DNA of 35,446 nt from an archaeon. Its GTDB lineage: Archaea > Nanobdellota > Nanobdellia > Woesearchaeales > UBA11576. The stretch spans positions 1-35,446 of the forward strand of contig JAGVOD010000027.1 in assembly GCA_020052935.1 (NCBI GenBank), written 5' to 3'. The notes beneath the pieces were generated by a model. It was given only the letters and a program-made list of their open reading frames with translations. It had not been told where the DNA came from and ran no database searches. This document shows, one piece after another, positions 252 through 31,350 of this stretch (its first letter is position 1; the number at the start of each line of letters is the position of its first letter). The translations under genes and the position numbers were made by a program.

Positions 252-385
252 GCAGCAGTGCCACGCCAGGCTCCGCTTATTGATGCTTTTTATGGAAACT
301 CGACATCCCCGTAGGGGGCGACCCCCTGTCGAGTGTGATTGAGTTTCCGTGCAACGCTTCGCAAAAATGGCGGTGGCACTGCTGC
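252..385. repeat. Hairpin element copy E1 with terminal inverted repeat GCAGCAGTGCCA/TGGCACTGCTGC
   Basis: Perfect 12-bp TIR 252-263/374-385; inner stems GGAAACTC/GAGTTTCC (294-301/341-348) and ACTCGACA/TGTCGAGT (298-305/327-334); core TCCCCGTAGGGGGCGACCCCC (306-326). Confidence 0.8.
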
Positions 386-2248: not shown

Positions 2249-2286
2249 TATTCCCTTTAATCAGGCTAGGTTGAAGACTCTAAAAA

Positions 2287-3273
2287 ATGGCAAACGTAAG
2301 AAGACCGAGACACGGAAGCATGCAAGTCTGGCCTAGAGTAAGGGCCAAACGCATCTACAAACGAGTCAAGAAATTCCCACAGGTAAAAGAGGCAAAACTT
2401 CTCAGCTTCGCAGGCTACAAAGCAGGAATGACGCATGTCCTGATCACAGACGCAAGAAAGTATTCTATGACAAAAGGCGAGGACATAACCTGGCCAGTCA
2501 CGATCATCGAATGCCCACCGATAAGGATAGCGGGCGTAAGGTTCTACAAGATATTCGAAAAAGCCATGAGGCCAGCATTCGACATACTAGCAAAAGCAGA
2601 CAAGGAACTCGGAAGGAAGATCGACGTGCCGAAGAAAGAGACAAAGAAGCTCGACACGGTAAAGGCAGAGGATTTCGACGAGCTCCGCATGCTCATCGAG
2701 ACGCAGCCAAAGATGACAGGCATAGGCAAGAAGATGCCAGAGTTCTTCGAGGGAAGCGTCGGCGGAAACAAAGACGAGAAATTCAAGTTCGCAAAAGACA
2801 ACCTCGGCAAGGAGCTGAGCGTAAAAGACGTGTTCAAGGAAGGACAGATGATAGACATCCACGCCGTGACAAAAGGCAAGGGATTCCAAGGGCCGGTGAA
2901 GAGGTTTGGCGTAAAGATACGAAACCACAAGGCAGAGAAGACAAAACGAGGACCAGGATCACTCGGCGGATGGAGCGCGCAAGGACACGTCATGTACAGG
3001 GTAGCGCACGCAGGACAGATGGGCTACCACAACCGAATAGACTACAACAAGCAGATACTCATGATCGGAGACGATGCAGAGCAGGTCAAGATCAAAGGCG
3101 GGCTCAAGAACTATGGCGTCGTGAAGAACACATACGTACTCGTCAAGGGCAGCGTACCCGGACCAGAAAAGAGGATAATAAGGCTCGAAGCAGGAAGAAA
3201 GGTCAATAACAAGGTAGAGCAGGTCCCGCCGACAATACAATACATAAGCACCGCGTCAAAGCAAGGCAACTGA
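2287..3273 (+). CDS. rpl3: 50S ribosomal protein L3 (uL3)
   Basis: RPRHGSMQVWPRVRAKRIYKRV and GYKAGMTH motifs; operon position. Confidence 0.95.
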   Translation: MANVRRPRHGSMQVWPRVRAKRIYKRVKKFPQVKEAKLLSFAGYKAGMTHVLITDARKYSMTKGEDITWPVTIIECPPIRIAGVRFYKIFEKAMRPAFDILAKADKELGRKIDVPKKETKKLDTVKAEDFDELRMLIETQPKMTGIGKKMPEFFEGSVGGNKDEKFKFAKDNLGKELSVKDVFKEGQMIDIHAVTKGKGFQGPVKRFGVKIRNHKAEKTKRGPGSLGGWSAQGHVMYRVAHAGQMGYHNRIDYNKQILMIGDDAEQVKIKGGLKNYGVVKNTYVLVKGSVPGPEKRIIRLEAGRKVNNKVEQVPPTIQYISTASKQGN

Positions 3274-3275
3274 AG

Positions 3276-4199
3276 ATGAAGCTCAAGATACTAAACCCGC
3301 AGAACAACGAGAAAGGCAGCATAGACATGCCACAAGTGTTCAGCGAGCAGATAAGGCCCGACATAATCAAACGAGCTGTCGAAGCGCTCCAGGCAAACGC
3401 AAGACAGTCATACGGATCAGACCCGCTGGCAGGAAAGAAGTCCAGCGCAAAGCTCTCGAGGAGAAGACGCGACTACAGGGGAAGCTACGGGCACGGAATA
3501 TCAAGAGTGCCGAGAAAGATAATGTCACATTCAGGGACAAGATTCAACTGGGTAGGAGCATTCGCGCCAGGAACTGTCGGCGGAAGGAAGGCACACCCGC
3601 CCAAAGCGACCAAGTCATTCGAAAAGAAGATCAACAATCAGGAAAGAAGGAAGGCAATAAGGTCTGCGCTGGCAGCCACGATGGAGAAGAAGCTCGTCGA
3701 GGCACGAGGCCACATAGCGCCAGAGAAATACCCGTTCATAATCACCAACGACTTCGAGACGATGAAGAAGACACGCGAGGTCATAGACGCCCTGGTCCAG
3801 CTCGGACTGGCGAAAGAGCTCGAGCGAGCGGCAGAGAAGACATACCGCACAGGAAAATCAAGGCTCAGGGGAAGGAAATACAGGAAAAGGAAAGGCCCGC
3901 TGTTCGTCGTGGCAAAGGAATGCCCGCTCATAAACGCTGCGCAGAACATACCTGGCGTCGATGTCGTGATGGCAAACGCACTCAACGCAGAGCTGCTCGC
4001 GCCAGGAACCGTGCCAGGAAGACTGACGCTATTCACAGAAGCAGCGATAGAAAGGATCGCCAAAGAGAACATGTTCACAGGCATGCAGATGACTGAGAAG
4101 AAAGACAAGACTGAGAAGACAGCGAAGACCGAAAAGCCTGCCAAGCAAGACAAGCCCAAGGCAGCAAAGCCTAAGGCAGTGAAGAAGGCAGACAGCTGA
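3276..4199 (+). CDS. rpl4: 50S ribosomal protein L4 (uL4) with Lys-rich C-terminal tail
   Basis: RRRRDYRGSYGHGISRVPRKIMSHSGTRFNWVGAFAPGTVGGRKAHPP; follows L3. Confidence 0.95.
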   Translation: MKLKILNPQNNEKGSIDMPQVFSEQIRPDIIKRAVEALQANARQSYGSDPLAGKKSSAKLSRRRRDYRGSYGHGISRVPRKIMSHSGTRFNWVGAFAPGTVGGRKAHPPKATKSFEKKINNQERRKAIRSALAATMEKKLVEARGHIAPEKYPFIITNDFETMKKTREVIDALVQLGLAKELERAAEKTYRTGKSRLRGRKYRKRKGPLFVVAKECPLINAAQNIPGVDVVMANALNAELLAPGTVPGRLTLFTEAAIERIAKENMFTGMQMTEKKDKTEKTAKTEKPAKQDKPKAAKPKAVKKADS

Positions 4200-4201
4200 A
4201 A

Positions 4202-4462
4202 ATGGAGATCACAAACGTCATCAAATACCCGTTGTCGACGGAAAAGTCGATAAGGCTCATGGAAGCGGAGAACAAGCTCATATTCGTCGTAGACATAAAA
4301 GCAAACAAGCACGAGATAAAGAAAGCCATAGAGAGGACATTCAAGGTGAAGGTCGAGGACGTAAAGACGCTGATCACGCCCAAGGGCCAGAAACGAGCAT
4401 ACGTCAGGCTTTCGCCAGAGACGCCGGCGCTGGACATAGCGACGGACCTCGGACTCATGTAA
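4202..4462 (+). CDS. rpl23: 50S ribosomal protein L23 (uL23)
   Basis: IKYPLSTEKSIRLMEAENKLIFVVDIKANKHEIKKAIE; operon order. Confidence 0.95.
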   Translation: MEITNVIKYPLSTEKSIRLMEAENKLIFVVDIKANKHEIKKAIERTFKVKVEDVKTLITPKGQKRAYVRLSPETPALDIATDLGLM

Positions 4463-4478
4463 TGATATAAGGTGTATC

Positions 4479-5195
4479 ATGGGAAAAAACCTAATACAGC
4501 AGGCACGTGGAAAAGGCGGCCCGACATACAGGGCGCCGAGCTTCAGGTACAAAGGAGAGGCAAAACACATCCGCCTCGCGCCAGAAGCGATAGAAGGAGA
4601 AGTCCTAGACTTCGTGCACTGCCAAGGCCACTCAGCACCGCTCGCCCAAGTCAGGTACAACAACGGCGATGTATGCCTGCACATAGCGCCGGAAGGGATG
4701 CGCGTGGGACAGAAGGTACAAAGCGGACCCAAGACAGAGTTAGAGCCAGGCAATACCATGCAGCTCAACGAAATACCTGACGGAACCGCGATCTATAACA
4801 TAGAAGGAATACCTGGAGACGGCGGAAAGTTCGTCAGGGCATCAGGCACATCCGCACGCGTGATGGGCAAGTACAAGAACAATGTTGTAGTGCTGCTCCC
4901 GTCAAAGAAACGGAAGGAATTCCACCCAGCCTGCAGGGCGACGATAGGAATAGTCGCGGGCGGCGGCAGGACAGAGAAACCATTGCTGAAAGCAGGCGTT
5001 GCGTTCCACAAGATGAAGGCAAAGAACAAGAAGTATCCGATAATGGCGGGCTCTGCACAGAACGCAGTCGACCACCCATTCGGAAACAAGAGGACGTCAC
5101 GCAAGTCAAAGGCAAGGCCTGTCGGCAGGAACGCCCCGCCAGGAAGAAAGGTAGGAATGATCGCCGCAAGAAGGACAGGCAGGAAGAAAAAGTAA
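4479..5195 (+). CDS. rpl2: 50S ribosomal protein L2 (uL2)
   Basis: MGKNLIQQARGKGGPTYRAPSFRYKG; AGGGRTEKP; DHPFGN motifs. Confidence 0.96.
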   Translation: MGKNLIQQARGKGGPTYRAPSFRYKGEAKHIRLAPEAIEGEVLDFVHCQGHSAPLAQVRYNNGDVCLHIAPEGMRVGQKVQSGPKTELEPGNTMQLNEIPDGTAIYNIEGIPGDGGKFVRASGTSARVMGKYKNNVVVLLPSKKRKEFHPACRATIGIVAGGGRTEKPLLKAGVAFHKMKAKNKKYPIMAGSAQNAVDHPFGNKRTSRKSKARPVGRNAPPGRKVGMIAARRTGRKKK

Positions 5196-5207
5196 AGGCA
5201 GGAAAAA

Positions 5208-5591
5208 ATGGCTAAAAAAGAATTCACATTCCGCGGAAAACCACTTGACGAGCTGCAGAGGATGAGCATGAGCGAACTAGCGGAACTCCTCCCATCCGCA
5301 GCCAGGAGAAAGATCAAGAGAGGGCTCACAGAACAGGAGAAGATACTCCTCAACAACCTGAAGACGAGCAAGAAGACAGTCAAGACGCACTGCAGGACCA
5401 TGATCGTGCTGCCAGAGATGGTCAGCAAGACAATAAAGGTATACAACGGCAAATCATTCGAGGACGTGATGATACAGCCAGAGATGATAGGCCACTACTT
5501 CGGCGAGTTCGTGATGACCAGGAAGAAGGTATCTCACTCAGCGCCGGGAATAGGCGCGACGAAGTCGTCCGCAAACGTATCAGTCAAGTAA
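5208..5591 (+). CDS. rps19: 30S ribosomal protein S19 (uS19)
   Basis: FTFRGKPLDELQRMS; IQPEMIGHYFGEFVMTRKKVSHSAPGIGAT. Confidence 0.95.
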   Translation: MAKKEFTFRGKPLDELQRMSMSELAELLPSAARRKIKRGLTEQEKILLNNLKTSKKTVKTHCRTMIVLPEMVSKTIKVYNGKSFEDVMIQPEMIGHYFGEFVMTRKKVSHSAPGIGATKSSANVSVK

Positions 5592-5602
5592 ACAGATAAA
5601 AA

Positions 5603-6112
5603 ATGGCACAATACAACTACGCATTCCAGGGATTCAACAAGGAACTCATGGCAAGAGCGGTAGCGAGAGACGTAGAAGTCAGCTATAAACAAGCAATAGA
5701 GATATGCAACTACCTGCGCCACAGGAAACTCGCCAATGCCAAGGCCACGCTCGAGAGAGTGATGGAAAAGAAGCAGGCCATACCCTTCAAGAGATTCGTG
5801 AATGGGCTGGGCCACAAGCCCGGGAAGATGACTTCAGGACGCTACCCTGTGAAGGCATCAGGCACGTTCCTCAAGCTGCTCGAGTCCATAGAGGCCAATG
5901 CGCAGACAAAAGGCCTCAACACAAACGAGCTCGAGATAGTACACATCTGCTCACACAAGTCGGCGAGACAGCCGCACTATGGAAGGAACGGCGGAAGGCA
6001 GTTCAAGAGATGCCACATAGAGGTCGTAGTCGCGGAGACCACCGAGAAGGAGAAAGGCAAGAAAGAAGAGAAGAAGAAAGCGCCAAAAGGCAAGGAAAAC
6101 AAAAAAGAATAG
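5603..6112 (+). CDS. rpl22: 50S ribosomal protein L22 (uL22)
   Basis: Archaeal L22 features (LRHRKLANAKATLERV, GHKPGKMTSGRYPVKAS, HYGRNGGRQFKRCHIEVV); operon order. Confidence 0.94.
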   Translation: MAQYNYAFQGFNKELMARAVARDVEVSYKQAIEICNYLRHRKLANAKATLERVMEKKQAIPFKRFVNGLGHKPGKMTSGRYPVKASGTFLKLLESIEANAQTKGLNTNELEIVHICSHKSARQPHYGRNGGRQFKRCHIEVVVAETTEKEKGKKEEKKKAPKGKENKKE

Positions 6113-6158
6113 ACAAGCATAACCACAAAAGGATAATCACACTCACGAGGAACAAAAG

Positions 6159-7058
6159 ATGATCGAAAGACAAATCGTGGCGGCAAACGTCAAGGAACTG
6201 GAGATACAGGAATACGTGCAGAGCGTGCTGAAGAACCTCGGGCACAGCCACATAAAGCTCCAGAAGACGCCGCTCGGAGAGAAGATCATAGTATATGCAT
6301 CAAGGCCAGGGCTCATCGTCGGAAGGAAAGGACAGAACATAAAGAAGCTCACAGACGACCTCAAAGCCAAGTTCAAGCTCGAGAACCCGCAGATAGAGAT
6401 AAACGAAGTAGACAGCCCGGACCTAGACGCCCAGATCGTGGCAGAGAGGGTCGCGAGCTCGCTGGAGAAATTCGGCACGCAGAGGTTCAAAGGCATAGGC
6501 CACAAGATAATGGCAGACGTCATGAATGCGGGCGCGATGGGAGTCGAGATACTAGTATCAGGGAAGATACCGAGCTCACGCGCCAAGAGATGGAGATTCT
6601 ACCAAGGCTACCTGAAGAAGTGCGGAGATGTCGCCATCGTCGGAGTCAGGAAAGCATACGCAGCAGCACAGCTGAAGACAGGCACGATAGGCATCCAGGT
6701 GAGGATAATGCCGCCGGATCTCAAGCTGCCAGACAAGGTCAGGATGCTCGAGCCAGGAGAAGTCGCTGAAGGGATGAAGAACCAGATACAGATGCAAGCA
6801 GACAAGAAAGCAGCAGAGAAGAAGGCAGAAGAGAAGAGAGAAGAAGCCAAGAGCGACGCGACAAAGGCAGAGGAGAAGAGACAGAGACGCTCAAGCAAGA
6901 AGGAAGAGAAGCCGCAGCACGAAGAGAAGACGGAGAAGGCCGAAGATAAGAAGCCCAAGAAAACTCCGAAGAAAAAGGAAGAGAAACCGGAGCAGGAACA
7001 GAAACTGCCGGAACAACCGCAACCATCACAATCAACAAGCGAAGAGAAAAAGGAATAA
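6159..7058 (+). CDS. rps3: 30S ribosomal protein S3 (uS3) with ~90-aa charged C-terminal extension
   Basis: KH domain IVYASRPGLIVGRKGQNIKKLTDDL; operon order. Confidence 0.95.
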   Translation: MIERQIVAANVKELEIQEYVQSVLKNLGHSHIKLQKTPLGEKIIVYASRPGLIVGRKGQNIKKLTDDLKAKFKLENPQIEINEVDSPDLDAQIVAERVASSLEKFGTQRFKGIGHKIMADVMNAGAMGVEILVSGKIPSSRAKRWRFYQGYLKKCGDVAIVGVRKAYAAAQLKTGTIGIQVRIMPPDLKLPDKVRMLEPGEVAEGMKNQIQMQADKKAAEKKAEEKREEAKSDATKAEEKRQRRSSKKEEKPQHEEKTEKAEDKKPKKTPKKKEEKPEQEQKLPEQPQPSQSTSEEKKE

Positions 7059-7065
7059 CTGAAAA

Positions 7066-7254
7066 ATGAAAGACCTAGACGTAACAAAGATGAGCAAGGA
7101 CGAGCTGAACGCCAAGATACTCGAACTCAGGAAAGAGCTCATCAAGCTTAACGCTCAGACAGCAACGGGCACTACACCAAAGAACCCGATGCAGATCAGA
7201 ACAACAAAGAAAAACATCGCAAGGCTCATGACAGCCTTGAGAGGAAAGGAGTAA
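7066..7254 (+). CDS. rpl29: 50S ribosomal protein L29 (uL29)
   Basis: Short helical protein ELNAKILELRKELIKLNAQ...TKKNIARLMTAL; operon order. Confidence 0.92.
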   Translation: MKDLDVTKMSKDELNAKILELRKELIKLNAQTATGTTPKNPMQIRTTKKNIARLMTALRGKE

Positions 7255-7259
7255 AACAA

Positions 7260-7568
7260 ATGAGTGAGATTTGTTCAACGTGCGGACTGCCAAAAGAGCT
7301 GTGCGTATGCGAGACAATCGCAAAAGAGAACCAACTCATCGAAATAAGCGTCGAGAAGAAGAAATTCGGAAAGCAATACACCGTGGTAACGGGCATCGAC
7401 ACGAAAGAGATCGACCTTGAGCAGCTCCTCAAGAAGCTTAAGAACAAGCTCGCTTGCGGAGGGACAGCCAAGGACGGCAAGATTGAGTTGCAGGGCCAGC
7501 ACAGGCAAAGAGTCAAGAAAGCGCTCCTCGAGATGGGATTCGCACCAGAAACAATAGTCATGAGATGA
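7260..7568 (+). CDS. Translation initiation factor eIF1/SUI1 homolog
   Basis: CSTCGLPKELCVC; KKFGKQYTVVTGID; LKNKLACGGTAKDGKIELQGQHRQRVKKALLEMGF. Confidence 0.92.
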   Translation: MSEICSTCGLPKELCVCETIAKENQLIEISVEKKKFGKQYTVVTGIDTKEIDLEQLLKKLKNKLACGGTAKDGKIELQGQHRQRVKKALLEMGFAPETIVMR

Positions 7569-7819
7569 ACATGCAGAAGCAAGCCAAGCCCGCAAGGACC
7601 GTGCTGATAGGCGAGACGATACGCATCGTGTCGTCGAAAAACAAGAGCCTCGAAGGCATCGGCGGGAAAGTGACGGACGAGACAAAAAACATGCTCAAGA
7701 TCATGACGCCCAAAGGCGAAAAGACAGCAATCAAGGACCAAATCACGATCAAAATCGGAGACAAGACGATCAACGGAGAACAAATCCAAGGAAAGATCGA
7801 GGCCAGGATCAAACAATAA
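7565..7819 (+). CDS. rnp1: RNase P protein component 1 (Rpp29/Pop4 family)
   Basis: LIGETIRIVSSKNKSLEGIGGKVTDETKNMLKI; canonical archaeal position between SUI1 and S17. Confidence 0.88.
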   Translation: MNMQKQAKPARTVLIGETIRIVSSKNKSLEGIGGKVTDETKNMLKIMTPKGEKTAIKDQITIKIGDKTINGEQIQGKIEARIKQ

Positions 7820-7830
7820 TGGTGAACTAA

Positions 7831-8277
7831 ATGCCAAGGACAAGAAACGCAGGATTCGAAATCACAATTCCCGAAAAAGCATGCACTGACAAGAAATGCC
7901 CATTCCACGGCAACCTCAAGACGCGCGGAAGGCAATTCACAGGCAAAGTAGTGTCAGAGAAGATGCAACACACAGTAGTCGTGGAGTGGGAAGGATGGAG
8001 ATACATCCCGAAGTACGAGAGGTACAGGAGGACAAGGACAAGGCTGCTCGCGCACAACACCCCCTGCATAAACGCTGCGGAAGGAGACATGGTCCTGATA
8101 GCCGAATGCAGGCCGCTCAGCAAGACAAAGAACTTCGTAGTGCTCAAGGTCCTAGGAAAACTCGAGAAATACGCACTTGAGAAAGAGGCCATGGAGGAAG
8201 CGAAGCACAAGGCCAAGGCCGCAGAGATAGAGAACCTCGCTAAGCAAGAGACGAAATCCAAGGAGAAAGGAGAGTAA
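7831..8277 (+). CDS. rps17: 30S ribosomal protein S17 (uS17) with C-terminal extension
   Basis: KCPFHGNLKTRGRQFTGKVVSEKMQHTVVVEWE; operon order. Confidence 0.94.
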   Translation: MPRTRNAGFEITIPEKACTDKKCPFHGNLKTRGRQFTGKVVSEKMQHTVVVEWEGWRYIPKYERYRRTRTRLLAHNTPCINAAEGDMVLIAECRPLSKTKNFVVLKVLGKLEKYALEKEAMEEAKHKAKAAEIENLAKQETKSKEKGE

Positions 8278-8279
8278 AG

Positions 8280-8681
8280 ATGCAAGCCCACAAAGCACGC
8301 GTGACAAAAGGACTCCAGCTAGGGTCCTGGATACCGACCTGCGACAACTCAGGAGCCAACATAATCAAGATAACATCGATAAAGAAGACCAAGACCTCGC
8401 AGAGACGCATCCCGTCATGCGGCGTCGGCGACATGATCATGGCGGCAGTCAAGAAAGGAAAGCCTGAGATGAGGAAACAGGTCGTATTCGCGATCATAGT
8501 CCGGCAGAGGAAGGAATACAGAAGGCTCGACGGCATGAGGATAAAATTCGAAGACAACGCGGCAGTCGTGCTGAAGGATGACAAAGGCAACCCGAAAGGC
8601 ACGATACTCAAGGGACCCATAGCGAAAGAGGCTGCAGCGAGATGGCCAGCAGTCTCGAAGATCGCAAGCATAATAATATGA
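8280..8681 (+). CDS. rpl14: 50S ribosomal protein L14 (uL14)
   Basis: CDNSGANIIKITSI; GVGDMIMAAVKKGKPEMRKQVVFAIIVRQRKEYRR. Confidence 0.96.
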   Translation: MQAHKARVTKGLQLGSWIPTCDNSGANIIKITSIKKTKTSQRRIPSCGVGDMIMAAVKKGKPEMRKQVVFAIIVRQRKEYRRLDGMRIKFEDNAAVVLKDDKGNPKGTILKGPIAKEAAARWPAVSKIASIII

Positions 8682-8695
8682 TCAATAATATGATT
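8672..8695. repeat. Tandem 12-bp repeat AATAATATGATC/AATAATATGATT spanning the L14 stop codon
   Basis: Direct reading of 8672-8683 and 8684-8695. Confidence 0.7.
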
Positions 8696-8724
8696 AATAT
8701 ACTCACAACCGAAGAAGGCATAAA

Positions 8725-9117
8725 ATGAAAAAGGAATTTTCAAAAAGCTGGAACTCAAGCAAAAGGCCCGGAAAACAGCGCAAGTACAGGTACAACGCCC
8801 CGCTCCATATAAAGCACAAGTTCTGCTCAGCACACCTGTCGAAAGAGCTGAGGACGAAGCACGGAAGGAGGAGCATAGAGGCGAGGAAAGGCGACAAGGC
8901 CAAGGTAATGAGAGGCCAGTACAAGGGAAGGGAGAACAAGATAGAAAGGGTAGACATAAAGAAGATAAAAATCTACATAACGGGCATAGAGACGACCAAG
9001 AAGGACGGCTCAAAATCACTCTACCCCATAGACCCGACGAACATCATGATAACCGAGCTGAATCTCGAAGACAAGAAAAGAAAGGCCACACTAAGCAAGG
9101 CCAAAGAGGAAGCATAA
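8725..9117 (+). CDS. rpl24: 50S ribosomal protein L24 (uL24)
   Basis: KOW region KGDKAKVMRGQYKGRENKIERVDIKK; operon order. Confidence 0.94.
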   Translation: MKKEFSKSWNSSKRPGKQRKYRYNAPLHIKHKFCSAHLSKELRTKHGRRSIEARKGDKAKVMRGQYKGRENKIERVDIKKIKIYITGIETTKKDGSKSLYPIDPTNIMITELNLEDKKRKATLSKAKEEA

Positions 9118-9118
9118 A

Positions 9119-9832
9119 ATGCCAAAGAGTCATCTCAAAAGGATGGCAGCACCAAAGAGCTGGCCCATACCTAGGAAGGAGACCAAATATGTCATGAGGC
9201 CCACGTCAGGACCCCACAAGCTCCGCAACGCGATGCCGCTATCCTTGGCAATGAGAGAACTGATCAAAGTCGCAAAGACGTCAAAGGAAGCGAAACACAT
9301 CATCAAGACCAAAGACGTCTTCGTAGACAAAAGGAAAAGGACAGACGAGAAATACCCTGTCGGCCTGATGGACATAATAGAGTTCCCTCAGCTCGAACAG
9401 CAGTACAGGATGCTCATCGACAAGAAAGGAAGGCTGAAGGCAGTCAAGGCAGATGCCAAGGAAGCCGCGACAAAGCTATCGAGGATAGAGTCCAAGACAA
9501 AGATCAAGGGCGGGAAGACACAGCTCGGCATGTCCGACGGAAGAAGCATCATAGTCGACAAGGACACATACGCAATAGAAGACGTCCTGCAGCTGGCGCT
9601 GCCAGAGCAGAAGATACTCAGCCACATGAAGCTCGAGAAAGGCACCCTGGTACTCATGACCGAAGGCAAGCACGCGGGCATGATAGGCACAGTGGAAGAG
9701 GTAGGCAAAGACAAAGTCACAATCAAAGCCGGGAAGAACCAGAACTTCGAGGTCATGAAGGCGCAGACATTCGCCGTAGGAAAAGAGAAGCCGGCCATAG
9801 ACAGCATAAAGCAACTGATGGCAGAAAATTAA
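9119..9832 (+). CDS. rps4e: 30S ribosomal protein S4e (eS4)
   Basis: KSHLKRMAAPKSWPIPRKETKYVMRPTSGPHKLRNAMPLSLAMRE. Confidence 0.95.
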   Translation: MPKSHLKRMAAPKSWPIPRKETKYVMRPTSGPHKLRNAMPLSLAMRELIKVAKTSKEAKHIIKTKDVFVDKRKRTDEKYPVGLMDIIEFPQLEQQYRMLIDKKGRLKAVKADAKEAATKLSRIESKTKIKGGKTQLGMSDGRSIIVDKDTYAIEDVLQLALPEQKILSHMKLEKGTLVLMTEGKHAGMIGTVEEVGKDKVTIKAGKNQNFEVMKAQTFAVGKEKPAIDSIKQLMAEN

Positions 9833-9833
9833 A

Positions 9834-10346
9834 ATGAAAAGCCCGAGAGACATAAGGATAGAGAAGGTAACGCTCAACATAGGCGCGGGAAAGAGCGCGG
9901 ACAGGCTAGAGAAAGGACTCAAGCTGTTCGAGATGCTGACCCAGGTCAAGCCAGTCAAGACCATCACCAACAAGAGGATAGCAGGATGGGGACTCAGGCC
10001 AGGACTGCCCATCGGCTGCATGGTCACGATAAGACGCGAAAAAGCGGCAGAGCTGCTGAAGAGGCTGCTGGGAGCGGTCGACAGGAAACTCAAGCCCGAG
10101 CAGTTCGACAACGAGGGAAACGTCGCTTTCGGAATAAGCGAATACACAGACATACCAGACATGGACTACTCGCCGGAGATCGGCGTGCTGGGATTCCAGG
10201 TCTGCATAACGCTCACAAGAGACGGCTTCAGGGTGAAGAGAAGGAAGCTACAAAGAAAGAAGATCGGCAGCAAGCACAGGATAAGGAAAGAAGAAGCCAC
10301 CGATTTCATGAAGAAGAACTTCAATGTAGTGTTCGAGGAGGAATAG
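9834..10346 (+). CDS. rpl5: 50S ribosomal protein L5 (uL5)
   Basis: [35 protein letters not shown]; operon order. Confidence 0.95.
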
Positions 10347-10350
10347 CCGA

Positions 10351-10581
10351 ATGACAACATCTGATCATAGGAAGATCCTGGCACAGCTCGCGGTCAAGCC
10401 TGCGATATACCAGAAGTTCATAAAGCACAACGCGCCCAAGAAAAGGACCTGCGGGATAAACCTGAAAAGATGCAAGCGATGCGGCACATACCATGGGTAC
10501 ATAGGCAAGTACGGCCTCAACCTCTGCAGAAGGTGCTTCCGCGAGGTAGCTGTCAAGATAGGATTCAAGAAATACAACTAG
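10351..10581 (+). CDS. rps14: 30S ribosomal protein S14 (uS14), zinc-binding
   Basis: C-x6[27 protein letters not shown]. Confidence 0.9.
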
Positions 10582-10983
10582 GTGCAAAAAATGTCACTGA
10601 ATGATACATTGTCAAACGCGATGTCCAAGATACTCAACTACGAGAAGGTCGGAAAGAAGGAGTGCGTAATAAAGCCCACATCGACCATAATAAAGAAGGT
10701 CCTGGACACGATGAACGCAGAAGGATACGCAGGCAAGTACGAGGAAGTCGAGGACTCCAGAGGCAAGTACATCAAGCTGGCGCTGCTGGGCAACGTAAAC
10801 AGCTGCGGAGCGATAAAGCCGAGATTCTCGGTCCAGCTCGACGCATACGAGAAGTTCGAGAAGCGCTTCCTGCCTGCAAAGGACTTCGGCATACTCATAG
10901 TCTCGACATCCCAAGGGATGATGACACACTACCAGGCCAAAGAGAAGAAGCTCGGCGGCAGACTGATGGCATACTGCTACTGA
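10582..10983 (+). CDS. rps8: 30S ribosomal protein S8 (uS8)
   Basis: LNDTLSNAMSKILNYEKVGKKECVIKPTSTIIKKVLD; ILIVSTSQGMMTHYQAKEKKLGGRLMAYCY. True start is probably MSLND at 10591. Confidence 0.94.
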   Translation: MQKMSLNDTLSNAMSKILNYEKVGKKECVIKPTSTIIKKVLDTMNAEGYAGKYEEVEDSRGKYIKLALLGNVNSCGAIKPRFSVQLDAYEKFEKRFLPAKDFGILIVSTSQGMMTHYQAKEKKLGGRLMAYCY

Positions 10984-11006
10984 ATAAAGGAAAAGAATAA
11001 AGGAAA

Positions 11007-11555
11007 ATGAGAATCAAACAACTCACAGAGAAGCTCGAAATACCAGAGAAGGCCCAGCTGACCATAGAAGGCAACCTTGTGAAGGTCAAGGGCCCGAAAG
11101 GAGAATTACAGAGAAAGCTCGAGCTCCAGAACACAGAGACCAAGATAGAAGGCAACAGGCTGCTGCTCATAGTCAAGGACGCGAACAAGAAAGACAAGAC
11201 AAGGATAGGCACGGTCAAGTCACACATAAAGAACATGCTCCAGGGAGCGGTGGCAGGCCACATGTACAGGCTGAAGATGTGCTCAAGCCACTTCCCGATG
11301 ACCGCCACAATGAGCGGAAGCTCGTTCGTCCTGAAGAACTTCCTCGGAGAGAAGGTCCCGAGGACACTCACGCTGAAACAAGGCGCGACAGTAAAGATCG
11401 AAGGCAACGAGATAACCGTCGAGAGCCCAGACATAGAGAAGGCAGGGCAGGTCGCGGCAGACATAGAGCTCCTGACACGCATAGTCAAGCGAGACATACG
11501 CGTATTCCAGGATGGCATATACATAACAAAGAAGTCCAAGAAGGAATCGACATAA
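11007..11555 (+). CDS. rpl6: 50S ribosomal protein L6 (uL6)
   Basis: VKGPKGELQRKL; CSSHFPMTATMSGSSFVLKNFLGEKVPR. Confidence 0.95.
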   Translation: MRIKQLTEKLEIPEKAQLTIEGNLVKVKGPKGELQRKLELQNTETKIEGNRLLLIVKDANKKDKTRIGTVKSHIKNMLQGAVAGHMYRLKMCSSHFPMTATMSGSSFVLKNFLGEKVPRTLTLKQGATVKIEGNEITVESPDIEKAGQVAADIELLTRIVKRDIRVFQDGIYITKKSKKEST

Positions 11556-11556
11556 A

Positions 11557-12159
11557 ATGAACACGAAAGAACTGCTCCAGAAAAGACGCGAAGTCAAGAG
11601 GAAGAAGCCAGAGTTCATAATGCAGGACGCGCACAAGAAAAAGAGGCTGCCCTGGAAGTGGAGCAAACCAAAAGGCTCAGACTCAAAGATGAGAGTGAGC
11701 AGGCGAGGTTATAAGAGGATGTTGAGGGTGGGCTGGGGCTCGCCATCAGAAGTCAAAGGGCTCAACAGACAAGGGCTAGTGCCGGTCACGGTCAACAACG
11801 TCAAGGAGCTGCAGAAGATAAACCCCAAGACAGACATCATAGTCATAAGCGCCAGCGTCGGCACAAAGAAGAGATGCGAGATAATAGAGGCTGCGCTGGG
11901 AAAGAACATGCTGATAGCCAACTACAAAGACTCGCGTAAGTTCCTCGAGACAGTCAAGCAGGATGCTGAAGCGAAGAAGAAAGAGAAAGAGACGCTCAAA
12001 CAGACCCGCGAGAAGAAGAAGGAAGAGGCGGCAAAGGTGGCGCAGAAGAAGGCCAAGGAAGCGAAGAAAGAAGAAGCCAAGAGCGAGGAAGAGAAGCAGG
12101 CAGACAAGAAGGCTGAAGAGAAGAAAGAAAAAGACAAGATGCTCATAACGACGCAATGA
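11557..12159 (+). CDS. rpl32e: 50S ribosomal protein L32e (eL32) with charged C-terminal tail
   Basis: WKWSKPKGSDSKMRVSRRGYKRMLRVGWGSPSEVKGLNRQGLVPV. Confidence 0.94.
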   Translation: MNTKELLQKRREVKRKKPEFIMQDAHKKKRLPWKWSKPKGSDSKMRVSRRGYKRMLRVGWGSPSEVKGLNRQGLVPVTVNNVKELQKINPKTDIIVISASVGTKKRCEIIEAALGKNMLIANYKDSRKFLETVKQDAEAKKKEKETLKQTREKKKEEAAKVAQKKAKEAKKEEAKSEEEKQADKKAEEKKEKDKMLITTQ

Positions 12160-12166
12160 GGTCAAG

Positions 12167-12724
12167 ATGAAACTCAAGGTACAAAGAAGGCTTGCAGCAG
12201 CGGTCTTGCGATGCTCCCCGAAGAGGGTATGGTTCGACGAGGAAAGGCTCGACGACATAAAGGAAGCGATAACCAAGCAGGACCTCAAAGGCCTCGTGAT
12301 AGACGGAGCCATACGACCCAAGCCCATCAAGTCCATCTCCCGCGGGAGGGCAAGGCACAAGAAACGCCAGAAATCAAAAGGCATGCAGAAAGGGCACGGC
12401 TCAAGGAAGGGCGGCCATAACGCAAGAAACCCCGGCAAGAAAGCATGGATGGCAAAGATAAGGGTGCAAAGAAGCTTCATCAAGATACTGAGGGACAAGA
12501 AGTACATCGACACAACGCTGTACCGAGACCTCTACCTGAAGTCCAAAGGCGGATTCTTCAGGAGCAAGCGCCACATCAAGCTATACCTGGAAGAGCACAA
12601 CCTCCTCAAGCCGCAAGACGCTAAAAAGCTGCAGCCTGAAGAGAAGAAACAGGAACAGACGCCAAAGCCAAAAAGGAAACCTAAGGCCAAGGCAGAAACC
12701 AAGGCAGAAAAAACAGAGCAGTAA
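12167..12724 (+). CDS. rpl19e: 50S ribosomal protein L19e (eL19) with charged C-terminal tail
   Basis: LKVQRRLAAAVLRCSPKRVWFDEERLDDI; GRARHKKRQKSKGMQKGHGSRKG. Confidence 0.95.
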   Translation: MKLKVQRRLAAAVLRCSPKRVWFDEERLDDIKEAITKQDLKGLVIDGAIRPKPIKSISRGRARHKKRQKSKGMQKGHGSRKGGHNARNPGKKAWMAKIRVQRSFIKILRDKKYIDTTLYRDLYLKSKGGFFRSKRHIKLYLEEHNLLKPQDAKKLQPEEKKQEQTPKPKRKPKAKAETKAEKTEQ

Positions 12725-12730
12725 GGCAAA

Positions 12731-13321
12731 ATGACAATCAAAAAATACGGCCAAAGACGAACTGTCCCGCACAGAAGGAAACGCGAGTCACGAACGAACT
12801 ACAAGAAGAGGCTCGCGCTCCTGAAATCCGGCGAGAACAGGCTAGTCATAAGGAAAGCGAACAATACAGTGACGATGCAGCTCGTCGAATACAGCCCTGC
12901 AGGAGACAAGACGCTCGTCTCAGCATGCTCGACAGAGCTGAGGAAGCTGGGATGGAAGATGCACACTGGAAACATGACGAGCGCATACCTGACAGGGATC
13001 CTCATAGGCGTGAAAGCCAAGAAGAAAAAGATCGGCCAGGCTGTGCTGGACCTCGGGCTCCAGACACCGAACAAGGGCGGAAAGCTCTTCTCGGCGCTGA
13101 AAGGGGCTGTAGATGCAGGCATGCAGATACCGCATGACGCAGAGGTATTGCCCGGCATGGACAGGATAAGCGGAAAACATGTCGCAGAATACGCAGCAAA
13201 GATAAAATCCGACAAGGCAAGGTACGAGAAGCAGTTCTCGCGCTACCTCAAGGAGAAAGCAGATCCAGAACAAGTCACAAAGATGTTCGAGGAGATGAAG
13301 AAGAAGATACTAGCTTCATGA
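12731..13321 (+). CDS. rpl18: 50S ribosomal protein L18 (uL18)
   Basis: RRKRESRTNYKKRLALLKSGENRLVIRKANNTVTMQLVEY. Confidence 0.95.
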   Translation: MTIKKYGQRRTVPHRRKRESRTNYKKRLALLKSGENRLVIRKANNTVTMQLVEYSPAGDKTLVSACSTELRKLGWKMHTGNMTSAYLTGILIGVKAKKKKIGQAVLDLGLQTPNKGGKLFSALKGAVDAGMQIPHDAEVLPGMDRISGKHVAEYAAKIKSDKARYEKQFSRYLKEKADPEQVTKMFEEMKKKILAS

Positions 13322-13335
13322 TCCGGGAGTAAAAA

Positions 13336-14148
13336 ATGGCAAGAGAAGAGGAAAAGAAACAACCGAGAAAGCTTCCAAAGGAAGATGAAATCATAGTAAA
13401 GGAAGAAGAGAAGCACCTCATAAAGCCCATCGAAGAGGAGGCTCCAGTAGTCAGACCATTGTCCTCGTTCGACTCCGACAGATGGAAGCCCAAGACATCA
13501 CTCGGAAAAAGGGTAAAGACCGGAGAGATAGCCAACATAGACACGATCCTAGATAATAATGACAGGATACTCGAGGTCGAGATAGTCGACATGCTCCTGC
13601 CTACGCTCGAATCAGACCTGCTCCTGATAGGACAGTCAAAAGGAAAGTTCGGCGGCGGACAGAGACGCGTATTCAGGCAGACACAGAAGAAGACCAAGGA
13701 AGGCAACAAGCCGAGCTTCGCCACATGCGCGGTGGTCGGAGACAGGAGAGGGCACATCGGCCTCGGCTACGGGAAGTCGCGCGAGACAGTGCCTGCCCGC
13801 GAGAAGGCATTGAGGAACGCCAAGCTCAACATAATAAAGATAAGACGCGGCTGCGGCTCATGGCAGTGCAACTGCAAGGAATCACACTCAATACCCTTCT
13901 CAGTGAATGGAAAATGCGGCTCGGTCATAGTGAAGCTGATGCCCGCACCAAAGGGAACAGGCCTCTGCGTCGGGAGCGAAGTGGCAAAGGTGCTCAAGCT
14001 CGCAGGAGTAGGAGACGTATGGTCCAGGACAGAAGGCAAGACGACATCAAGGATAAACCTGATGATGGCGACGATAGAAGCGCTCAAGAAGCTCATGACC
14101 ACAAAGGTCCAGGAAAGATACAAGGAAAAACTCAACATAACAGAGTAA
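13336..14148 (+). CDS. rps5: 30S ribosomal protein S5 (uS5)
   Basis: ATCAVVGDRRGHIGLGYGKSRETVPAREKALRNAKLNIIKIRRGCGSWQC. Confidence 0.95.
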   Translation: MAREEEKKQPRKLPKEDEIIVKEEEKHLIKPIEEEAPVVRPLSSFDSDRWKPKTSLGKRVKTGEIANIDTILDNNDRILEVEIVDMLLPTLESDLLLIGQSKGKFGGGQRRVFRQTQKKTKEGNKPSFATCAVVGDRRGHIGLGYGKSRETVPAREKALRNAKLNIIKIRRGCGSWQCNCKESHSIPFSVNGKCGSVIVKLMPAPKGTGLCVGSEVAKVLKLAGVGDVWSRTEGKTTSRINLMMATIEALKKLMTTKVQERYKEKLNITE

Positions 14149-14156
14149 ACGCGAAG

Positions 14157-14582
14157 ATGGAAACCAAAAAACCCGCACAAAAACAGGCGCAAAAACCGGC
14201 ACAAAAGGAAGCCAAGGGCAAGCTCGCAGCAATCAGGATAAGGAATATCACCAAAGCAGACGGCAAGATGCGTGGCACACTAGACATGCTCGGCCTGCGG
14301 AAGAGCCACACCTGCGTGATTGTACCAAACACAGAAGCAATGCGCGGCATGATCAACAAGGTCAAAGACTACGTCACATACGGCGAAATAGAGGAAGAGA
14401 CAGCCAAGATGCTCGAACAGAAACGCGGAAAGAAAGGCAAGGACGGCGCAAGGAAAGACTTCCACCTCAGCCCGCCAAGGGGAGGATTCGAGAGGAAAGG
14501 CATAAAGCACAACTACGAGCAGGGCGGAGCTCTCGGATACCGCGGAAAGAAGATAAACGAGCTGATCAAGAAGATGCTCTGA
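14157..14582 (+). CDS. rpl30: 50S ribosomal protein L30 (uL30)
   Basis: ATG 14157 (METKKPAQKQAQKPAQKEAKGKLAAIRIRNITKADGKMRGTLDMLGLRKSHTCVIVP). The ORF-track start at 13725 is an in-frame upstream extension through S5. Confidence 0.9.
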   Translation: METKKPAQKQAQKPAQKEAKGKLAAIRIRNITKADGKMRGTLDMLGLRKSHTCVIVPNTEAMRGMINKVKDYVTYGEIEEETAKMLEQKRGKKGKDGARKDFHLSPPRGGFERKGIKHNYEQGGALGYRGKKINELIKKML

Positions 14583-14591
14583 TGATCCAAA

Positions 14592-15113
14592 ATGGTAATC
14601 AATAAAAGAAAGAAAAACAGCAGGCAACGAGGATACCAGACCCATGGCTGGGGCTCCATGAAGAAGCACCGCGGCAAAGGCCATCGCGGAGGAGCTGGCA
14701 TGGCCGGCACAGGAAAAAGGGCAGACCAAAAAAAGCCATCGATCTGGAAAGACGAGAAATACTTCGGAAAGTTCGGCTTCATCTCTAAGTCCAGGATGCC
14801 TGAGATGATACCCATAGACATCAAGACCATAGAGGACAGGCTGGAATCTCTCGTGAAGAAAGGCCTCGCGAAGCACGAAGGCGGTGCGTATACCCTAAAC
14901 CTGGCAGACCTCGGATACAACAAGCTCCTCGGAAACGGCAAGGCAACAAAGAAACTGATGATCACTACAGACTTCGCAGCAGCGAGCGCAATAGAGAAGA
15001 TAAAAAAGGCTGGCGGAGACGTCAAGGTGCTCATAACGAAGAAAGAGAAGAAGAAAAAGCATAAAGAAGAAGAGAAAGAGGGGAAAGGAAAAGAAGCAGA
15101 GGCCAGCAAATAG
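14592..15113 (+). CDS. rpl15: 50S ribosomal protein L15 (uL15)
   Basis: KKNSRQRGYQTHGWGSMKKHRGKGHRGGAGMAGTGKR. Confidence 0.94.
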   Translation: MVINKRKKNSRQRGYQTHGWGSMKKHRGKGHRGGAGMAGTGKRADQKKPSIWKDEKYFGKFGFISKSRMPEMIPIDIKTIEDRLESLVKKGLAKHEGGAYTLNLADLGYNKLLGNGKATKKLMITTDFAAASAIEKIKKAGGDVKVLITKKEKKKKHKEEEKEGKGKEAEASK

Positions 15114-15174
15114 AAATCCAACAATACATCCCGATCTTCTTCAAATCCTTTAAACAAAAACCAACAGGCTGACC

Positions 15175-16563
15175 ATGACACTCTTCGAAAAAGTCATCTC
15201 ATACCTTCCTGAGGTCGCAAGACCTATGCAGAGAAGGCTTTCTTTCAAGGAAAAGCTCAAGTGGACGATAATCTGCCTCGTCCTGTTCTACATGATGGGC
15301 CTCATACCCCTGTTCGGCCTGGGCCAGAACGCGCTGCAGCAATTCGAATACCTATCTATAATACTGGGCGCACAGTTCGGCTCGATAATATCCCTAGGTA
15401 TCGGACCGCTCGTCACAGCATCCATCGTCCTCCAGCTATTGAACGGCTCAGGACTCGTCAAGTTTGACCAGAAGACGCACGAGGGGCGAAGACGCTTCCA
15501 GGGGACGCAGAAGATAATGAACATCTGCTTCGTGATATTCGAGGCAGGCATATACGTATTCATGGGCGGACTAGCGCCCCCACCTGAACTTGCAGGCACA
15601 CCATTCTTCTTCCAGCTAGAGCTGTTCCTGGTATTCCAGCTCATCCTCGGCGGAATAATCATCATGTTCATGGACGAAGTCATCTCAAAATGGGGCTTCG
15701 GCTCAGGAATAAGCCTCTTCATCGTAGCAAACGTGGCACAGGAGATATTCATGCGGTCGCTGAGCCCGCTGCCCAGCCCGACAAACCCAGGCATAGCGAC
15801 AGGAGCCATACCTGCGTTGTTCCAGAGCCTGGCCGCGGGAGACGCAGTGACTGCGGGGCTGATGCTGTCTGTCTTGATTGCGACAGCCGTAGTGTTCATG
15901 GTCGCAGTATACGCGCAGGCCATGAAGATAGAGATACCATTGTCATTCGGAAGGATACGCGGACACGGAATAAGATGGCCGCTGGCATTCATCTACACAT
16001 CAAACATACCAGTCATACTCGTCGCAGCACTGATGGCCAACATACAGCTGTTCGGCAGGCTGCTGCAGAACTGGGGACACCCCTGGCTAGGAACATTCGT
16101 CGGCAACACACCATCCACAGGCATGGTGGCGTGGATAAACGCGCCAGACATACTCGGAAAGATAATACGAGGCAGCATCACAGGCACTGATTTCACGCAA
16201 GGCCTCGCATACACGCTTTTCATGGTCGCAGGCGCGATTTTATTCAGCGTCTTCTGGGTCCAGACATCAGGCATGGACGCGAGAAGCCAGGCAGAGAAGA
16301 TAATGGCATCAGGACTGCAGATACCTGGCTTCAGGAAAGACCCGAGGATACTCGAAAAAGTCCTCGACAGGTACATAGGCCCGCTGACAGTCATGGGAGC
16401 GATAACAGTCGGACTGATAGCCGCGCTGGCGGACCTCACCGGAGCGTTCGGCAGAGGCACAGGAATCCTGCTCTCAGTCATGATCATATACAGGATGTAC
16501 GAAGACATAGCAAAGCAGCACATGATGGACATGCATCCCATGATGCGCAAGTTCATGGAATAG
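15175..16563 (+). CDS. secY: Preprotein translocase subunit SecY
   Basis: Polytopic membrane protein; LGIGPLVTASIVLQLL; ISLFIVANVAQEIF; IPLSFGRIRGHGIRWPLAFIYTSNIPVIL; DMHPMMRKFME; follows L15. Confidence 0.95.
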   Translation: MTLFEKVISYLPEVARPMQRRLSFKEKLKWTIICLVLFYMMGLIPLFGLGQNALQQFEYLSIILGAQFGSIISLGIGPLVTASIVLQLLNGSGLVKFDQKTHEGRRRFQGTQKIMNICFVIFEAGIYVFMGGLAPPPELAGTPFFFQLELFLVFQLILGGIIIMFMDEVISKWGFGSGISLFIVANVAQEIFMRSLSPLPSPTNPGIATGAIPALFQSLAAGDAVTAGLMLSVLIATAVVFMVAVYAQAMKIEIPLSFGRIRGHGIRWPLAFIYTSNIPVILVAALMANIQLFGRLLQNWGHPWLGTFVGNTPSTGMVAWINAPDILGKIIRGSITGTDFTQGLAYTLFMVAGAILFSVFWVQTSGMDARSQAEKIMASGLQIPGFRKDPRILEKVLDRYIGPLTVMGAITVGLIAALADLTGAFGRGTGILLSVMIIYRMYEDIAKQHMMDMHPMMRKFME

Positions 16564-16567
16564 GAAA

Positions 16568-17338
16568 ATGTTCGAAGCACTTCTAGCCCCAGTCTTCTCG
16601 CCGCTGCTCAGACTGCCGCCCGTAGCCGCGATAGGCATAATAGCGCTAGTCATCTCGCTGATAATCATCATAGTCTACAAGTACATGACAGACCAGACCC
16701 TGATGAAGGACATCAAGCACAGGCAGAAAGAGCTCCAGAAAAAGATGAAGGAGTACAAGAAAGAGCCTGAGAAGATGATGAAGGTACAGAAAGAGCTCAT
16801 GGACCTCAATATGAAGTACATGACCCAGAGCTTCAAGCCTACAATCATAACATTCCTGCCTATAATAATAATATTCGGATGGCTGAACGCCAACCTCGCG
16901 TACGAGCCGATACTGCCAGGCCAGGAATTCACCACTACACTCGCACTCAAGGAAGGATTCAACGGCAACGTAAGCATAACAGTGCCTGAAGGAGTTGAAG
17001 TTATCGGCGATTCGGTGACTGAGATAAATGAAGGAAAGGCAGAATTCAAGCTCAAAGGCAAGGAAGGAGACTACCTACTGGTATTCAACTACGACGACAA
17101 GCAGTACAACAAGGAGCTCACGATAACAAAAGACAGGCGATACGCAGCAGTCCAGAAACTGCTCAAGGACGAGCCTGTCAGCGCCATAACCCTCAGCAAC
17201 CCGAAATTACTGGCTGTGAACCTCTTCGGCAAAGAGGAAGGCGGGTTCTTCAGCGGAAGAGTCGGCTGGCTGGGCACATACATCATATTCTCGCTGCTGT
17301 TCAGCCTTGGATTGAGAAAAGTCCTTAATATATACTGA
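16568..17338 (+). CDS. DUF106/EMC3-TMCO1-like membrane insertase with extracytoplasmic domain insert
   Basis: TM1, Lys-rich coiled coil KEYKKEPEKMMKVQKELMDLNMKYMTQSFKPTIITFLPIIIIFGWL, TM3 near C-terminus; downstream of secY. Confidence 0.75.
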   Translation: MFEALLAPVFSPLLRLPPVAAIGIIALVISLIIIIVYKYMTDQTLMKDIKHRQKELQKKMKEYKKEPEKMMKVQKELMDLNMKYMTQSFKPTIITFLPIIIIFGWLNANLAYEPILPGQEFTTTLALKEGFNGNVSITVPEGVEVIGDSVTEINEGKAEFKLKGKEGDYLLVFNYDDKQYNKELTITKDRRYAAVQKLLKDEPVSAITLSNPKLLAVNLFGKEEGGFFSGRVGWLGTYIIFSLLFSLGLRKVLNIY

Positions 17339-17664: not shown

Positions 17665-18693
17665 ATGGAAACCGAGATGCAAAATCTCATAAAGCAGGCA
17701 AACAAGGCATTCCTCTCAGAGTTCAAGCCAGAGACCTGTTTCGGAAGATGCATATTCTTGAGCTGGTACTGCGATGTCGGCACGTGCAAGTTCTGCTTCC
17801 GCTCGACAATAAAGCACAAGATAAGATACGCGAAGAACGCCAAGAGGACACTCGAATCTGTGCTGGCAGACGCGCTCATCAGCAAGAAGATGGGATGGCG
17901 GCTGGAGTTCCTGACAGGCGGATACAGGATCTTCTCACCCGACGAGATGCTGGATATAATCAAGAAGGTGTCTGAGGTATACGGCGAGAAGATATGGATC
18001 AACCTTGGGACCATGGACAAAGATAGGCTGGCTAAGCTGAACCCATACGTCCAGGGAGTATGCGCATCAATAGAGACTGTCGAGCCTGGGCTGCACAGTA
18101 AGATATGCCCTGACAAGCCGATTGCACCCTACTCAGAGATGCTCAAGCAGGCGAAAGAGCTGGGATTCAAGACAAGCATCACGATAGTAATAGGCCTCGG
18201 CGAGAAAAAAGAGGACTTTCCTCTGCTGGAGAAGTTCATATCTGAGCATAAGCTGGACAGGATAACGTTCTATGCGCTGAAGCCAGTACGCGGGACTGAA
18301 TACACTGCGAGCCCTGAACCAGAACAATATGCCTGGTGGATAGCGAAGACGAGGATAAGATTCCCGAAGCTCGAGATAATGTCCGGCCTGACGCCAAAGA
18401 AAGTCGAGTATGCAGAACTGCTGCTTATAGCTGGAGCGAACGCAATAACAAAATTCCCTGCGATAAAGCAATTCAATTCTTTGAACGCAAAATCGATAGA
18501 AAAGCAGGCTGCTGCGGCAGGAAGGAAATTCCTGGGAAGCCTCACAGAGATGCCAAGGATAGATTGGGACAAAGAGATAGAGAATCTGCCATTCGACAAA
18601 GAGCTGAAACGCAGGATAAAAGCGAAACTCGAGCAGCAGCTAGAGACGATGAGGAAGACGAAGAAAACGACTGCGGATGATGAATTCTGCTGA
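17665..18693 (+). CDS. Radical SAM protein with CX4CX2C cluster motif
   Basis: LSWYCDVGTCKFCFRST; LTGGYRIFSPDEML; Rossmann/TIM-like segments; GLGEKKEDF. Confidence 0.78.
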   Translation: METEMQNLIKQANKAFLSEFKPETCFGRCIFLSWYCDVGTCKFCFRSTIKHKIRYAKNAKRTLESVLADALISKKMGWRLEFLTGGYRIFSPDEMLDIIKKVSEVYGEKIWINLGTMDKDRLAKLNPYVQGVCASIETVEPGLHSKICPDKPIAPYSEMLKQAKELGFKTSITIVIGLGEKKEDFPLLEKFISEHKLDRITFYALKPVRGTEYTASPEPEQYAWWIAKTRIRFPKLEIMSGLTPKKVEYAELLLIAGANAITKFPAIKQFNSLNAKSIEKQAAAAGRKFLGSLTEMPRIDWDKEIENLPFDKELKRRIKAKLEQQLETMRKTKKTTADDEFC

Positions 18694-18876
18694 AAGCGGT
18701 GCCACGCCATGCTACGCTTGTTTATTAGCTTCCTGAAACGTGACCTCCCCGTAAGTCTCTCAAACCCTTGGTTTGTGAGAAGTTACGAACGCCGGGCGTT
18801 CGAAACTGGACTTCCCCCCGTCACGTGCTATTTTCTAACCGAAAAACGCTTCGCAAAATGGCGGTGGCACCGCTTT
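18693..18876. repeat. Hairpin element copy E2, 13-bp TIR AAAGCGGTGCCAC/GTGGCACCGCTTT (18694/18864 region)
   Basis: TIR ~18693-18705/18864-18876; stem ACGTGAC/GTCACGT (18738-18744/18820-18826); nested hairpins ~18756-18780 and CGAACGC-cgg-GCGTTCG (18786-18802); CTCCCCGTA partial core. Confidence 0.75.
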
Positions 18877-20576: not shown

Positions 20577-20738
20577 GCTCTGTAGAAAAGTTCACCTTCG
20601 GTGGGTGCCGCCAGGCTTCGCGCCACAATCCTGTTTCTGTAGACCTGACATCCCCGTAGGGGGCTTCCCCCTGTCAGGTGCAATAGTGCAGCAGATATGC
20701 ACTTCGCAAAAAGGCGGCACCTCACTTTTCTACAGAGC
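20577..20738. repeat. Hairpin element copy E3, 14-bp TIR GCTCTGTAGAAAAG/CTTTTCTACAGAGC
   Basis: TIR 20577-20590/20725-20738; second IR GGTGCCGCC/GGCGGCACC; stem ACCTGACA/TGTCAGGT (20643-20650/20672-20679); core TCCCCGTAGGGGGCTTCCCCC (20651-20671). Confidence 0.8.
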
Positions 20739-29338: not shown

Positions 29339-29641
29339 AGGCAGTGCCGCGCTAGGCTACGCCCTGATTCGCAAAACCGAGGCCTGTTTCGATGCTTCGC
29401 ATTGTAACCCTTCAGGCCGCTGCGTCCTGAAGTGACTCGCCTCGTCGAGCCTCGTGACGCCAAGCCCGCCTATTCTGTTTTACGAAGTTAGTCTGATAAA
29501 ACCCAATTATTTCGTTGACTAATTTCGCCTATGTGGCGGGCTATAAGGGCGAATCCGCCTACGGCGGAAGGGTCGCGTTCGCTTCGCTCGCGACCGTCAC
29601 CAGCCTCGGTTTTGCTATTGTTATTGGCGGCGCCACTGCCT
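29339..29641. repeat. Long hairpin element copy E4, TIR AGGCAGTG/CACTGCCT
   Basis: TIR 29339-29346/29634-29641; inner 12-bp IR GCAAAACCGAGG/CCTCGGTTTTGC (29371-29382/29604-29615); hairpins TCCGCC-tac-GGCGGA (29554-29568) and GGTCGCG/CGCGACC (29571-29577/29589-29595). Confidence 0.78.
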
Positions 29642-31162: not shown

Positions 31163-31320
31163 GGGCAGTGCCGCGCCAGGCTGCGCTAAATTAGCAGTGG
31201 CACGCGAGGCTCGGCGTGCATCGGTTTTGTTGATTGGGCTATCTCCCCGTAGGGGGCATCCCCCGATAACGCCCCTGCAGATATTGTAGAAACGCCTCGC
31301 GAATTCGCGGTGCCACTGCT
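31163..31320. repeat. Hairpin element copy E5 (31193-31320, TIR AGCAGTGGCAC/GTGCCACTGCT) abutting a left-end fragment (31163-31190)
   Basis: TIR 31193-31203/31310-31320; core TCCCCGTAGGGGGCATCCCCC (31244-31264) with stem GGGC-TATC/GATA-ac-GCCC; fragment GGCAGTGCCGCGCCAGGCTGCGCT. Confidence 0.75.
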
Positions 31321-31350
31321 TAAGAAGTTATTGGCTATGCTGCTAAATCT

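Follow-up and report, generated by a model that had tools for sequence, protein, structure and literature searches.

The element E1, one of several palindromic sequences in the window (the whole stretch of 35,446 nucleotides analysed here), ends in two arms that pair with each other. The first-pass annotation had noticed that similar elements elsewhere in the window end in arms of other sequences that are still complementary, and had proposed that pairing is kept where the terminal inverted repeats (TIRs) of a transposon would keep their sequence. The locus therefore raises the question of what is conserved in such elements, the letters of the stem or its fold. A single palindrome is unremarkable in this respect, given that perfect 12-bp inverted repeats number 2 in the window against 0.5 expected, with a maximum of 3 in shuffles; since a lone palindrome is near the level of chance, the question concerns the family and not the single copy.

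Copies in the window

All the arms that had been quoted for E1, E2, E3 and E5 are present in the window where the annotation had placed them (Table 1), and the substitutions that had drawn attention to them, a C-G to G-C swap between E1 and E5 and an A-T to G-C swap between E1 and E2, are real.

Table 1. Element E1, its parts and the related copies in the window
Feature	Position	Strand	Sequence and remarks
E1, whole element	252..385	+	type A
E1 outer stem, left arm	252..264	+	GCAGCAGTGCCAC; pairs with 373-385; covariation
E1 outer stem, right arm	373..385	+	GTGGCACTGCTGC
E1 stem continuation	265..268	+	GCCA; pairs with TGGC 368-371; one bulged G at 372 in the right arm
E1 left GCTNCGC motif	270..276	+	GCTCCGC; other strand GCGGAGC, a GNA-triloop mini-hairpin sequence
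E1 inner stem	299..333	+	CTCGACA/TGTCGAG around conserved core CCCCGTAGGGG; 7/7 pairs covary
E1 right GCTNCGC motif	356..362	+	GCTTCGC; other strand GCGAAGC
E2	18693..18876	+	type A; part of core replaced by extra hairpins
E2 arms	18693-18705 / 18864-18876		AAAGCGGTGCCAC / GTGGCACCGCTTT
E3	20577..20738	+	type B; side hairpin CACC-TTC-GGTG
E3 outermost stem	20577-20591 / 20724-20738		GCTCTGTAGAAAAGT / ACTTTTCTACAGAGC
E3 inner stem	20604-20612 / 20713-20721		GGTGCCGCC / GGCGGCACC
E4	29340..29640	+	long element; outer-stem module as in the family (GGCAGTGCCGCGC / GGCGGCGCCACTGCC), interior different
E5	31164..31343	+	layered copy; inner type C element 31191-31322, arms paired
E5 inner element arms	31191-31203 / 31306-31322		TTAGCAGTGGCAC / CGCGGTGCCACTGCTTA
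E5 outer layer arms			GGCAGTGCCGCGCCA / TTGGCTATGCTGC; badly drifted

Other features were observed in the same stretch. A second repeat (CCAATTATTTCRTTGACTAA ... GGCGGGCTATAAGG) is common to positions 1-240 and to the interior of E4 (29340-29640); it carries a hairpin whose arms differ yet pair, and about 25 places in the genome match it in part. An ABC transporter ATPase gene (26544-28868, minus strand) contains an intein within its Walker A motif (GSGK|CISGDS ... IIHN|STAMN), with Pfam matches to Intein_splicing and LAGLIDADG_3, and an open reading frame at 20786-21952 (plus strand) has a long central glycine run.

Size, subtypes and spread of the family

Used as a DNA query, E1 gave 43 matches in its own genome (G000), and with a covariance model based on 37 copies the number rose to at least 131, which is a lower bound because it counts matches among the best 150 candidates scored. 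The same model matched 35 times in the related genome G001, 15 times in G003 and 44 times in G008, with few matches in G013 (6), G014 (4), G002 (2) and G004 (1) and none in G005, G006, G007, G011 and G012. Weaker DNA matches were found in G040, G041 and G057, and the core pattern also matches contigs named Candidatus Woesearchaeota. The E1 family is thus a set of palindromic repeats distributed patchily among relatives of this Woesearchaeota-type genome; a literature search outside subscription papers found no report of such elements in Woesearchaeota.

The copies fall into three types (A, B and C), and some elements sit within a further outer pair of arms. In these layered copies (n = 18) the inner arms are always perfect, against 11 copies with perfect outer arms, and the stem sequence of one layer differs from that of the other. 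An autonomous copy was not seen. A separate sequence, TGTATAGTCCCGAAATTGGTTAAC, recurs at contig ends (L170, L024 and L173) and is probably an unresolved repeat or the end of an insertion sequence.

Conservation of pairing in the stems

Covariation was evident already in the alignment of 37 copies, where 99 cells were changed on both sides of a pair, against 25.3 ± 4.2 in shuffles, and the covariation score reached 0.262, compared with 0.085. With 126 copies, two-sided cells numbered 560, against 138.5 ± 11.2 in shuffles and at most 132 when the partner was slid by 1-3 columns, and one-sided cells about 33, so that two-sided changes were some 17 times as frequent as one-sided ones, a ratio of counts that are inflated because this alignment was fitted to the structure. 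The score rose to 0.403 (0.115 shuffled, with none of 500 shuffles as high), and 93.0% of cells were paired, compared with 75.7% in shuffles and about 33-50% in the slid controls. The direct comparison of the outer arms is independent of the structure-fitted alignment.

Unpaired drift of the outer stem is rare: among the 63 non-layered copies listed, the 10-bp outer stem is, in the register of the model, perfect in 53, with one mismatch in 5 and two mismatches in another 5, the latter being side-hairpin types read out of register. Neither are the ends invariant TIRs, since the 87 copies with a perfect 10-bp outer stem carry 21 different outer stems and 47 different inner ones; if arms were drawn at random from the 21 stems, simple arithmetic predicts matching arms in about 12% of copies. 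The one-base bulge (a G in the right arm) is retained in 86 of these 87 copies. Parsimony on a tree built from the loops counted 283 switches from one Watson-Crick pair to another against 61 single breaks, figures of which only the ratio is usable given the poor resolution of the tree. A middle stem between the outer and inner stems was also considered and is not supported on inspection by eye.

That pairing, and not the sequence of the stem, is conserved is therefore supported across the family, as the first-pass annotation had proposed from a few copies. Recognition is probably by both shape and sequence, because some stem columns and the motifs of the internal loops are conserved in sequence as well. 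The co-changing arms show that pairing is maintained, but that selection maintains it does not follow from them alone, since copying from arm to arm by template switching can leave the same pattern (PMC8794818).

A fold in DNA or in RNA

Among 3500 cells, 3209 are Watson-Crick, 47 are G-T and 72 are A-C. G-T is not in excess on the modelled strand, and the excess of A-C, which corresponds to G-T on the other strand, is small and due in part to misalignment; the tolerance of G-U that is typical of RNA is absent. The GCTNCGC motif, with a variable N, is present on both arms and reads GCGNAGC on the other strand, and d(GCGAAGC) and GNA-loop DNA mini-hairpins are extraordinarily stable (PMC4686876). 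In the side hairpins of type B the stems differ and the loops, compared by eye, are mostly TNC (GNA on the other strand) with few exceptions, while the mini-hairpin loops of type C are not GNA, which limits the DNA-strand argument to types A and B. The strand carrying GCGNAGC is favoured by DNA folding in 67 of 87 copies and by RNA parameters in 64 of 87, so nearly equal that folding energy alone is not decisive. Orientation with respect to the flanking genes shows no bias (32/25/24/19), and no Rfam family reached its gathering threshold, E1 itself having just a weak match below it.

Insertion sites and copies within genes

The elements are inserted between genes and sometimes in frame within them, the share within genes being small. 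In-frame copies were found in the genes of methionyl-tRNA synthetase (MetRS; L165 and L187), a methyltransferase with an NPPF motif (L023 and L201) and, in the genome of E1 itself, TruD (L015). An intron or a self-splicing element is an unlikely explanation for these copies, because the reading frames are open through the insert in both species for MetRS and the methyltransferase, and in TruD. Target-site duplications of at least 7 nt were found in none of 96 copies and those of 4-6 nt were at or below chance, although decay with age is possible, and the flanks show no conservation except that a pyrimidine follows the right arm.

Three sites are shared between species, each with the element in the same orientation: the MetRS gene (G000 and G003), the methyltransferase gene (G000 and G001) and an intergenic site (G000 and G001; L180/L190). 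The MetRS insert is absent from G001, G002, G004 and others and the methyltransferase insert from G003 and others, and these patterns conflict, such that one gain cannot account for both unless an insert was also lost or gained in parallel. At the site of E1, upstream of a primase gene, the covariance model found no match in G001-G004.

The two MetRS copies are identical at 128 of 160 positions and differ mostly in loops. Their side hairpin reads CGTGC-GGA-GCACG in G000 and CGGCA-GGA-TGCCG in G003, so that three pairs have changed and all are compensated; in G003 the outer stem has one broken terminal pair. The idea that the outer stem in MetRS is an inverted copy of its target was dropped, as the outer stems of type B themselves form a family. 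At the other two shared sites the copies in the two species are of different subtypes; separate insertions or conversions may account for them, and for this reason they were not counted as proof of change in place. Since target duplications are lacking, it is the presence and absence of elements between species that points to mobility, and transposition is putative here.

Alternative explanations

The strongest competitor to the reading as a mobile element recognised by its fold is mutational upkeep, in which one arm is copied from the other during replication by template switching or quasi-palindrome correction, and E1 is a palindromic repeat of the ordinary kind whose folding is not under selection. 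Template switching can give rise to perfect hairpins that persist and change on both sides (PMC8794818). Intermediates are nearly absent in the E1 family, and all-or-none perfect pairing, as observed in it, was taken by the authors who described the coding palindromes of nematomorphs to indicate active conversion (PMC6649704). However, arm copying should erase the one-base bulge and the asymmetric loops, and the bulge has been kept almost without exception; in addition, the one coding block examined (2281-17300) contains no perfect 10-bp inverted repeat against 0.6 expected, so that there is no sign of general palindromisation there. These two points weigh against template switching as the sole cause, which we consider rather unlikely, and selection and copying may act jointly.

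An ordinary miniature element (MITE) belonging to a DDE insertion sequence, in which each of several master subfamilies has its own perfect TIRs and the copies are too young for the arms to have drifted, would account for the division into types A, B and C and for the partial drift of the interrupted outer layers; MITEs with TIRs are common in prokaryotes, have been described from archaea too and are able to form in-frame fusions with genes (PMC10969869). This explanation is nonetheless improbable, given the lack of target-site duplications, the very many masters that the diversity of outer and inner stems would demand, the preponderance of Watson-Crick switches over breaks even on a poorly resolved tree, and the compensated changes at the shared MetRS site. 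A structured RNA, that is, a regulatory or processed transcript whose fold is reflected in the covariation, appears very improbable: strong covariation and conserved internal loops are its usual sign and a number of copies fall within 5' regions or mRNAs, but G-U pairs are not favoured on the modelled strand, the elements show no orientation bias relative to genes, and Rfam offers no family at the gathering threshold.

Comparison with known systems

Nearest in kind are MITEs and the Rickettsia palindromic elements (RPEs). Like prokaryotic MITEs, the elements are short, non-coding and dispersed, with palindromic ends and no internal transposase gene; unlike them, they have neither target-site duplications nor a fixed terminal sequence, pairing being kept instead. 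RPEs are palindromic, multi-copy elements of about 150 bp found in frame within unrelated protein genes and elsewhere (PMC10969869), and the E1 family resembles them in being palindromic, multi-copy and in frame within protein genes, but its host is archaeal and the share of its copies in genes is small. The signature of covariation, bulge and GNA loops is documented for the E1 family, RPEs having been compared by description only.

Integron attC sites are also palindromes that vary in sequence, and it is their folded bottom strand, with its extrahelical bases, that is recognised (PMC3053210), yet the attC boxes RYYYAAC/GTTRRRY occurred at both ends in none of 124 copies, and E1 copies are dispersed singly instead of forming cassette arrays and have sequence-conserved internal loops. 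IS1272 chooses its targets by structure and makes no target duplications (PMC5678879); the E1 family likewise has none, and different subtypes occupy one site in the two genomes G000 and G001, empty sites having been examined by eye, but IS1272 codes for a transposase and has fixed inverted repeats, whereas the E1-family elements carry no gene. The palindromic repeats of Volvox carteri organelles are short proliferating hairpins often inserted into one another (PMC2670323); they are organellar and mostly shorter, and that paper nowhere uses the word "compensatory". The perfect inverted-repeat arms of nematomorph genes also change together (PMC6649704), but those palindromes are parts of conserved gene sequence and E1 belongs to a dispersed repeat family. 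By the tests run (attC boxes, target duplications and Rfam), the element fits no known family.

A proposed mobile element read as folded DNA

The explanation that we favour, at about even confidence, places E1 in a dispersed family of palindromic mobile elements of Woesearchaeota-type archaea that are non-autonomous, resemble MITEs and are recognised as folded single-stranded DNA. The functional unit would be a folded single strand of DNA in which an outer stem of 10-14 bp carries a single bulged base, GCGNAGC mini-hairpins lie on both sides, and an inner stem encloses the conserved core. A trans-acting enzyme would read this hairpin, more likely on the strand that carries GCGNAGC, and would move or resolve it, such that copies with mismatched arms would leave fewer descendants.

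No mobilising enzyme was found among the families searched. In assemblies that are incomplete, G000, G001 and G003 lack the Y1 transposase (PF01797), which among 13 genomes is present only in G002 and G008, the latter being the exception to its absence where the element is abundant; IS110 (PF01548) is absent from all 15 genomes; and reverse transcriptase (PF00078), which G000 has and G003 lacks, does not track the abundance of the element. All three were rejected, being absent or uncorrelated with copy number. The two reverse-transcriptase domains of the genome of E1 lie at G000:C96:1568-2206 and C102:3164-3697.

More tentatively, and with somewhat more doubt than confidence, these elements might belong to an undescribed mobility system of Woesearchaeota, in which palindromes would be moved as folded single-stranded DNA, marked by GNA triloops and the bulge, and tolerated in essential genes such as that of MetRS. 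The data suggest that whatever moves or keeps the elements reads the shape of folded DNA and not only its letters. If pairing is what is kept, the family would preserve a natural archive of compensatory changes in DNA, hundreds of them, would let selection on the fold and template-switch copying be told apart, and would offer a possible route to an archaeal recombinase that reads DNA hairpins, in a lineage where palindromic DNA lives in frame inside an essential gene.
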